Origin: an uncultured Clostridia bacterium | GTDB taxonomy: Bacteria > Bacillota > Clostridia > Oscillospirales > Ruminococcaceae | DNA: 64,000 nucleotides | NCBI GenBank assembly: GCA_947623585.1 | Contig: CANQHA010000001.1 | Span: 62,001-126,000 of the forward strand | Direction of reading: 5' to 3' | Part shown: positions 19,613-21,895 of the stretch, piece by piece | Layout of the letters: each line of letters starts with the position of its first letter | Position numbering within the stretch: position 1 is the first letter of the stretch | Translations under genes and position numbers: made by a program | Notes under the pieces: generated by a model | What the model saw: only the letters and a program-made list of their open reading frames with translations | Databases searched by the model: none | Told to the model about the DNA's origin: nothing

Positions 19613-19882
19613 TCAATCGACGGTCTTAGGAACGACGACGCAGCCCGCAACGGTTTTCGGCGCGTTTTTGAGCATCTCGTCCCTCGAAATTTTGTTCTCG
19701 CCGACGACGTCCTCGCGAAGAGTCATTGCGTTTTCGGCGTTTAAGGTAAGCTCGTCGCTTATGTCCGGCATGGCCTCGACCATGGCGATTATGTCAGACA
19801 TTTCCTTTTCGTATCCCGCGATCTCCTCCTCGGCGATCCTTAAGCGGGACAGCTTAGCTATATGCCTGATGTCAATATTCAT
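19613..19882 (-). CDS. gatC: amidotransferase subunit C, also read as the C-terminal end of LigA
   Basis: 89 residues beginning [20 protein letters not shown] and ending [17 protein letters not shown], a complete GatC, which bridges GatA and GatB. GGAGGA lies 7 bases before ATG 19882, so independent translation is likely. However, this ATG is in frame with ligA upstream and no stop codon separates them, so a LigA-GatC fusion can also be made. In the +1 frame a TGA overlaps the ATG (ATGA), the usual layout for two separate coupled genes. Confidence 0.85.
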
Positions 19883-21895
19883 GTGCTTGTCCTCCAGTGA
19901 TCCGGCGCTTGTCTGCCGGTTTATTATGCTCATGAGCTGCGATTCGTCTATTACCGCAACACCGAGCTGATTGGCTTTTGTCAGCTTCGAGCCGGCGTCT
20001 TCGCCCGCAAGAACGTAATCGGTCTTCTTTGAAACGCTTGATTTCACAATTCCGCCGTTCTTTTCGATTAGCGCCTGAGCCTCGTCGCGCTTCATGCTCG
20101 GAAGCGTTCCGGTTATTACGAAAACCTTTCCCGAAAGGCTGTCTGAAGAAGCGGTGCGGCTGAACGATGTGTTCACGCCGGCGGCTCGCAAGGCGGCTAT
20201 CGTTTTTTTCATGTGAGGCTCGCAAAGCGCCTCGGCTACGGCTTTTGCGGTCAAGGTCCCGAAACCGTCGATTTTTGCTATTTCTTCGGCCGAGGCGTTC
20301 ATAACGCTGTCGATATCGCCGAAGCGCTCGCAAAGCAGCCTTGCCGAAGCCGAGCCGATATTTTTTATGCCGAGACCGCAAAGCAGCCTGTCAAGCGAAT
20401 TGCTCTTTGAATTTTCAATGGCGTTGATAAGGTTTTCCGCAGATTTTTTCTTATAGCCATCGAGCGAGAGAAGATCGCTTTCGGTCAGCCTGTAAATATC
20501 CGCGACGCTTTTAATAAGCCCGCTCTCGTAAAGCGCTTTCGCCTTTTCGGGGCCCAAACCGTCGATGTTCATGGCGGGCTTTGAGGCGAAGTAGATAATT
20601 CTTCTTAAAACCTGAGCCGGACAGTCGATGTTCGAGCACCTGAGCGCGCTTTCGCCCTCGTCTCTTATAGCCTTTGCGCCGCATATGGGACAGGTATCTG
20701 GCAGCTTGAAGGGCTCGCCTTCGTTGCACGGAACTGCTACGCCCAAAACCTCGGGAATAATGTCGCCCGCCTTTCTGACAGTTATCATGTCGCCGACGCG
20801 TATGCCGCGCTCGTCGATGAAATCTTGATTGTGAAGCGTCGCCCGCGAAACGCTGGTTCCGGCAAGAAGAACGGTGTCAAACACCGCGACGGGGGTTATT
20901 GCGCCGGTTCGCCCGACGTTTACCTCAATTTCTTTCAGCTTTGTGACCTTTTCCTCGGGCGGGAATTTATATGCTACCGCCCAGCGCGGGACCTTTGAGG
21001 TCGAGCCTATCTGCTCGCGGTCAGAAAGACTGTCCAGCTTGATAACTACGCCGTCGATGTCATAGGGCAGGTCGTAGCGCGACTCGCCTATCTCTTTTAT
21101 GCAACGCTCGATATCCTCGTACTCCGAGACGAGGGTGTACTTCGGTATGACCTTGAAGCCCTGAGATTTGAGATAGTCGAGCGTTTGCTTGTGCGAAGAA
21201 AACTCTTTGCCGCGAACCTGCTGAACATTAAAACAAAAAATGTCGAGCCGGCGCTTTGCGGCTATTCGCGAATCCTTTTGGCGGAGCGAGCCGGCGGCGG
21301 CATTTCTCGGATTTTTGAACGGCGTTTCGGAATTGAGCTCCATTTCGTCTTGCAGCTTCATAAAGACCGAACGCGGCATATATACCTCGCCCCTGACCTC
21401 AAGAAGCGGCAGCTTGTCCGAAAGCTCGAGCGGCACGGAACCGATGGTCTTTATATTCTGGGTGACGTCCTCGCCGACGAAACCGTCGCCGCGCGTCGAG
21501 CCGCAGGTCAGCACGCCGTCGCGATATTCAAGCGAGCAGGAAAGCCCGTCGATCTTCGGCTCAACGGTAAAGCTCGGGTCATCGACGCTTTGCTTTATTC
21601 GCTCGAAGAAATCTCTGACCTCGGAAAAACTGAAAACGTCCTGAAGACTGCCCATCTGGACCGCGTGGTTCACTTTTTTAAAGCCCGAAACAGGCGCTCC
21701 GCCGACCCTCTGAGAGGGAGAGGACGGGCTTAAAAGCTCGGGGAATTCGGCTTCAAGCCCCCTCAGCTCACGCATGAGCGCGTCGTATTCGTAATCCTCG
21801 ATCTCAGGGTCGTCTTCGACGTAATATTTTCTGTTGTGATAGTTTAAAAGCTCGGTCAGCTCGCCGACCCGCTTTTTTGCGGAAATAATATCCAT
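19613..21895 (-). CDS. ligA: NAD-dependent DNA ligase LigA fused in frame to GatC
   Basis: The frame encodes 760 residues. Residues 1-671 are a full ligase: Ia domain, the adenylation lysine Lys114 in KIDG, OB fold, a four-cysteine zinc finger (CPICG...CSNIDC, about 405-430), HhH repeats, and a complete BRCT domain ending in MSIIN near residue 660. After a ~12-residue linker ([12 protein letters not shown]) the frame runs directly into GatC (672-760). Bacterial LigA is normally 660-690 residues and ends after BRCT. It seals nicks using NAD. The unfused ligase would occupy 19883-21895. Whether the fusion is real or a sequencing or assembly indel cannot be decided here. Confidence 0.9.

Follow-up and report, generated by a model that had tools for sequence, protein, structure and literature searches.

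A joined ligA–gatC reading frame with a retained gatC ribosome site in a Ruminococcaceae operon

In the genome of an uncultured Clostridia bacterium of the Ruminococcaceae, the genes for the NAD ligase LigA and the amidotransferase subunit GatC share one open reading frame. We studied this frame in the window, as we call the whole 64,000-nucleotide stretch of DNA that was analysed. The joined frame is real as sequence and probably not an error. Relatives have ligA and gatC as separate genes, the downstream GGAGG and ATG are kept in all 13 close species that can be read at the joint, and a case from another genus keeps a TTG, a pattern that is one of stop loss. On comparative grounds we are largely confident that the ligA stop is labile at a tight operon joint where the gatC ribosome site has been retained, that the fusion is tolerated and that the joint flips its state between species.

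The initial annotation of the window had left two options: a genuine fusion accompanied by free GatC, which would tie DNA sealing to the amidotransferase, or a ligA stop removed by an indel or an assembly error. The part that holds is stop loss as an evolutionary event, with free GatC as the comparison suggests. Two other species share the frame with different joints, which makes an assembly error unlikely. The link between ligase and amidotransferase finds no support: fusion occurs in scattered species, the linker is unconserved, and what the joint keeps is the GatC ribosome site.

The joined frame and its surroundings

The frame occupies positions 19613-21895 of the minus strand, starts with ATG and comprises 760 codons for 760 amino acids, as seen in the ORF list and the sequence (Table 1). 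Pfam places the ligase adenylation, OB and zinc-finger domains between residues 70 and 427, HhH at 443-566, BRCT at 587-657 and GatC at 688-755. Both halves score above curated cut-offs: the LigA half with NF005932 (819.1 bits, cut-off 369, residues 9-657) and with a full-length match to TIGR00575 (LigA; 796.2 bits, residues 13-654), the GatC half with TIGR00135 (50.4 bits versus 47.1, model positions 4-93 of 93) and PF02686 (GatC; 41.2 bits versus 23). The ORF list, Pfam and NCBIfam thus bear out the first description of the frame as a complete LigA through BRCT, a linker of about 12 residues and a complete GatC with no stop. The domains are those of an ordinary LigA and an ordinary GatC, but here no stop lies between them, and instead of ending right after BRCT the polypeptide runs on through GatC. 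Searches of solved structures with the joined protein returned expected relatives only, namely ligases, BRCT proteins, a Hef fragment and GatC 3h0l.

Table 1. Features of the joined frame and the downstream gat genes, in window coordinates
Feature	Position	Strand	Basis or remark
LigA part, residues 1-660	19916..21895	-	adenylation, OB, zinc finger, HhH, BRCT; Pfam and NCBIfam
Linker, residues 661-671	19883..19915	-	differs between fused species; alignments
GGAGGA, Shine-Dalgarno-like site of gatC within the ligA frame	19890..19895	-	sequence; kept among relatives
In-frame internal ATG, GatC residue 1 (residue 672), predicted start of free GatC	19880..19882	-	sequence and relatives
GatC, 89 aa, stop codon shared with the joined frame	19613..19882	-	PF02686 and TIGR00135
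gatA, downstream, separate	18141..19598	-	ATG 19598 taken as start; ORF list has TTG 19616
gatB, downstream, separate	16687..18126	-	ORF list

Downstream, gaps of 14 nt separate gatC from gatA and again gatA from gatB, and both junctions are unfused in all 15 genomes examined. The genome of the window is a draft of 2.07 Mb in 43 contigs and is 99.47% complete. A genome search yields one LigA-like match and one PF02686 (GatC) match, which are the two parts of the joined frame; a second ligA or gatC was looked for elsewhere in this genome and was not found. With the glnS model, the genome shows no more than a partial match (59.2 bits versus a cut-off of 425.8). Because glnS stays below its cut-off while asnS passes, GatCAB is probably needed for Gln-tRNA in this organism, and GatC is probably essential because its match is the only one in the genome and no GlnRS scores above the cut-off.

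Further ORFs surround the operon. The one directly upstream of ligA (window 21912-22769, minus strand) matches the sporulation protein YunB (PF09560), and another at 14156-15322 matches YqfD (PF06898); the neighborhood therefore contains sporulation-type genes. Beside gatB, on the opposite strand, lies an ORF of 333 aa (15689-16690, plus strand) that is hydrophobic by eye and has no Pfam match at E 0.001.

Distribution and phylogeny of the joined frame

How widespread is the joined frame? From 457 confirmed relatives the best 80 were taken, and the window's own locus was added; 31 of these 81 loci, which have no gatC match, were left out of the adjacency count, and in the other 50 gatC adjoins ligA. 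Three of the adjacent loci are fused and 47 are unfused. As measured to the estimated first GatC residue rather than to a proven start, the gap is 1-59 nt in 41 of the unfused loci, four overlap by 1-5 nt (L031, L049, L051 and L057) and about 370 nt separate the genes in two (L026 and L074). The initial annotation had proposed a search for other genomes with ligA and gatC in one frame, and such genomes exist: besides the window's species (G000), two further species of the genus carry the joined frame (locus L002 in G025 and L004 in G022), as does G064, a member of another genus. Among the 31 genomes of the genus, the contig of one (G028) stops short of the joint, and that genome is not counted; 3 of the 30 assessable genomes are fused, the window's included, and 27 are unfused as judged by frame lengths and stops. 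As a separate observation, one species of the genus has a second match of NAD ligase type (G021:C24:37715-39721), which shares 35% identity with the window's LigA.

G064 belongs to the same family and provides a further stop-free LigA–GatC span among the matches listed for the family sample (297 genomes, 279 with a match). Its frame has 834 codons counted from the first TTG (L152 1047-3551, G064:C6) and is found on a contig of 4.5 kb, in a genome that is 70% complete. GGAGGA again precedes by seven bases an in-frame start codon at the beginning of GatC, here TTG. We take this case as independent of those in the genus because it comes from a different genus and shows 52% identity, a judgement made from these two features rather than from a tree. 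The order sample (394 genomes) contains no stop-free span beyond G000, G025 and G022 among the matches listed, nor do the class (391) and phylum (398) samples among matches at E 1e-33 or better, a level that a more diverged fusion could escape. The other spanning matches listed for order, class and phylum hold at least one stop each. The samples at the four ranks share some genomes.

The 13 close species that are readable at the joint form a graded set. Three are fused (G000, G025 and G022), in G023 ligA ends in an ATGA overlap with gatC, in G019 the ligA stop lies 2 nt before the gatC ATG, and in the other eight ligA stops 15-29 nt ahead of the position estimated for GatC residue 1; ligA and gatC are thus separate at the same place in 10 of 13. 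The joint of G022 aligns without a gap to that of its sister G017, and the two differ at the stop codon among other substitutions, while G025 and G023 are two 1-nt gaps apart. Linkers differ in sequence among the fused species, and for L004 and L152 also in length; those of G000 and G025 are of equal length and in register.

Loss of the ligA stop from the window's genome through faulty sequencing or assembly would be compatible with a draft in many contigs, and an indel of 1-2 bases there would yield the ATGA layout of G023. Against this stand the open frame in two other species, the matching length and register of the G000 and G025 linkers, and a joint that is, as already pointed out in the initial annotation, free of any long homopolymer in the window sequence; we regard an error as very improbable. 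Relatives with a short indel that gives a separate ligA stop had been named as the finding that would speak against a genuine joined frame. Such a difference is indeed seen between G023 and G025, and it represents natural variation between species, not a correction of the window.

Trees were built from LigA and four neighboring proteins (2878 aligned columns), from rpoB (1256 columns) and from both combined, six in total, with G012 and G005 as outgroups to the 13 species. G017, G024 and G029 enter the five-gene alignment without two genes, which lie outside the sequence stretch used; for rpoB, G018 has no match and G029 only a partial one. G022 pairs with the unfused G017 in all six trees, and G025 pairs with the unfused G023 in five; in the sixth, from the rpoB protein, it joins G000 with support 92. 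The three fused species as a clade are rejected by the five-gene data (AU p 0.0037 for amino acids and 0.0031 for nucleotides), with rpoB added (1e-5) and on rpoB alone (0.048), so that the fused species do not constitute a stable clade. G000 and G025 as sisters are rejected on protein (AU p 0.026) and not on DNA (0.053). One shared origin of the fusion in these two species is possible, because of this DNA result and their pairing in the rpoB protein tree. Fitch parsimony counts three changes of joint state on five of the trees and two on the rpoB protein tree, and these changes may be gains or losses. Several deeper branches are poorly supported (values 20-64).

These results bear on the idea of a selected bifunctional protein, in which LigA would carry GatC, and so GatCAB, and link DNA sealing to tRNA amidation. 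The open frame, found in three species of the genus and in G064 outside it, would fit such a protein, as would the adjacency of gatC and ligA in 50 of the 81 loci. The fused state is scattered on the trees, though, the linker shows none of the conservation expected of a conserved fusion, the internal ribosome site is kept in 4 of 4 fused cases, and few genomes of the genus are fused. Distribution, trees and linkers thus lend no support to a conserved bifunctional enzyme, and we consider a selected one highly unlikely.

Mutation in silico shows how the joint may move between states. For 7 of the 10 unfused species, 58-146 of the 222 short indels introduced into the ligA tail bring ligA and gatC into one frame; routes are few in the other three (9/222 indels in G021, 8/111 substitutions in G017 and 7/111 in G027). 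In the three fused species, 2-5 of 111 substitutions, or any indel of 1-2 nt, separate the genes again. The joint can thus enter and leave the joined state easily. In five species the ligA tail reaches the gatC leader, and three of these are fused, which is somewhat above the quarter to a third that we roughly estimate for a joint in frame and free of stops, yet not far from chance. Because of this slight excess, mild selection may act on the joined state. It is even conceivable, at long odds, that the joined frame is selected in some lineages: part of the GatC would be delivered on LigA, which would tether the amidotransferase to a DNA repair enzyme or control how much GatC is free, and the toggling of the joint would tune that fraction.

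The internal start of GatC

Two features of the window sequence had been singled out in the initial annotation and are plainly visible: GGAGGA lies seven bases before ATG 19882, and a TGA in another frame overlaps this ATG (ATGA). On both strands of the window, GGAGG occurs at -14 to -5 before 16 of 1382 ATGs, and of all ATG, GTG and TTG codons that lie in frame within the ORF, ATG 672 alone is preceded at a similar distance by GGAGG, AGGAG or GAGGA. The Shine–Dalgarno-like site before ATG 672 therefore exceeds what chance would often give. GGAGG together with an ATG start for gatC is found in all 13 close species, including the three fused ones, with GGAGG beginning at -11 to -14; in G027 the gatC ATG sits two codons further upstream. 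Four-fold sites in the tree genes are 46-54% identical (0.46-0.54) in the six species compared. The predicted accessibility of the start region carries no clear signal among the 13 species: the Shine–Dalgarno site is unpaired at 0.42, 0.18 and 0.38 in the fused species, within a range of 0.06-0.68 across all 13. Taken together, the comparison supports free GatC from the internal start, where initiation is predicted.

Possibly, GatC is instead made only as a fusion, in which case the internal site would be a non-working leftover and GatCAB would carry LigA. The site lies inside a translated frame, with no termination there to drive reinitiation, and translational coupling depends on very short distances according to the part of the source available to us (PMC10666635). 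If the fusion was gained at the tips of the tree, retention of the site could also partly reflect earlier selection. However, GGAGG and ATG are retained in the three fused species of the genus where only about half of the four-fold sites are identical, and G064 retains GGAGGA and TTG. We attach little credence to this possibility.

Evolutionary stop loss with a retained gatC start, the explanation that we prefer, would work as follows. In a ligA-gatC-gatA-gatB operon, the ligA stop would be lost in frame with gatC while gatC retains its own ribosome-binding site. As the open frame implies, ribosomes from the ligA start would meet no stop until the end of gatC and produce LigA–GatC. Other ribosomes would initiate at GGAGGA-N7-ATG, as conservation of the site suggests, and produce normal GatC, which would presumably join GatA and GatB to form GatCAB. 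The GatC tail on LigA is probably tolerated and not selected, and short indels and substitutions in an unconstrained ligA tail would flip the joint between species.

The close species of this one genus offer a natural series from separate genes through an overlap to a joined frame, between two housekeeping genes. The series suggests that an apparent gene fusion can come or go more than once and leave the downstream ribosome site in place. What it resembles is ordinary drift in evolution where two genes adjoin tightly, not a new machine. It can mislead to label such frames as bifunctional or to derive a partnership from them.

Comparison with known systems

A literature search for a LigA–GatC fusion gave no relevant report among the matches listed; the term GatC also matches the DNA motif GATC. 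Two known systems come close, each described here from the portions of the papers that we could consult. Loss of a stop codon is described as an origin of unidirectional overlapping genes, with a 4-nt (ATGA) overlap as a likely outcome (PMC3887535). As in those overlaps, the upstream gene is here lengthened into the downstream gene by stop loss, and ATGA is found in G023. That work regards in-frame (phase 0) cases as alternative starts of a single gene and leaves them out, whereas LigA–GatC is such a phase 0 case. In Mycobacterium smegmatis mutants, loss of the gatC stop gives a gatC-gatA fusion with a shifted GatA band and mistranslation, and a minor band of under about 10% is also reported for the fusion strain (PMC7541841). 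Both there and here, a stop lost between adjacent genes of the gat operon yields one polypeptide. In M. smegmatis, however, the C-terminus of GatC is joined to GatA and mistranslation results, whereas in the wild genomes described here the N-terminus of GatC is joined to LigA and the gatC start is retained.
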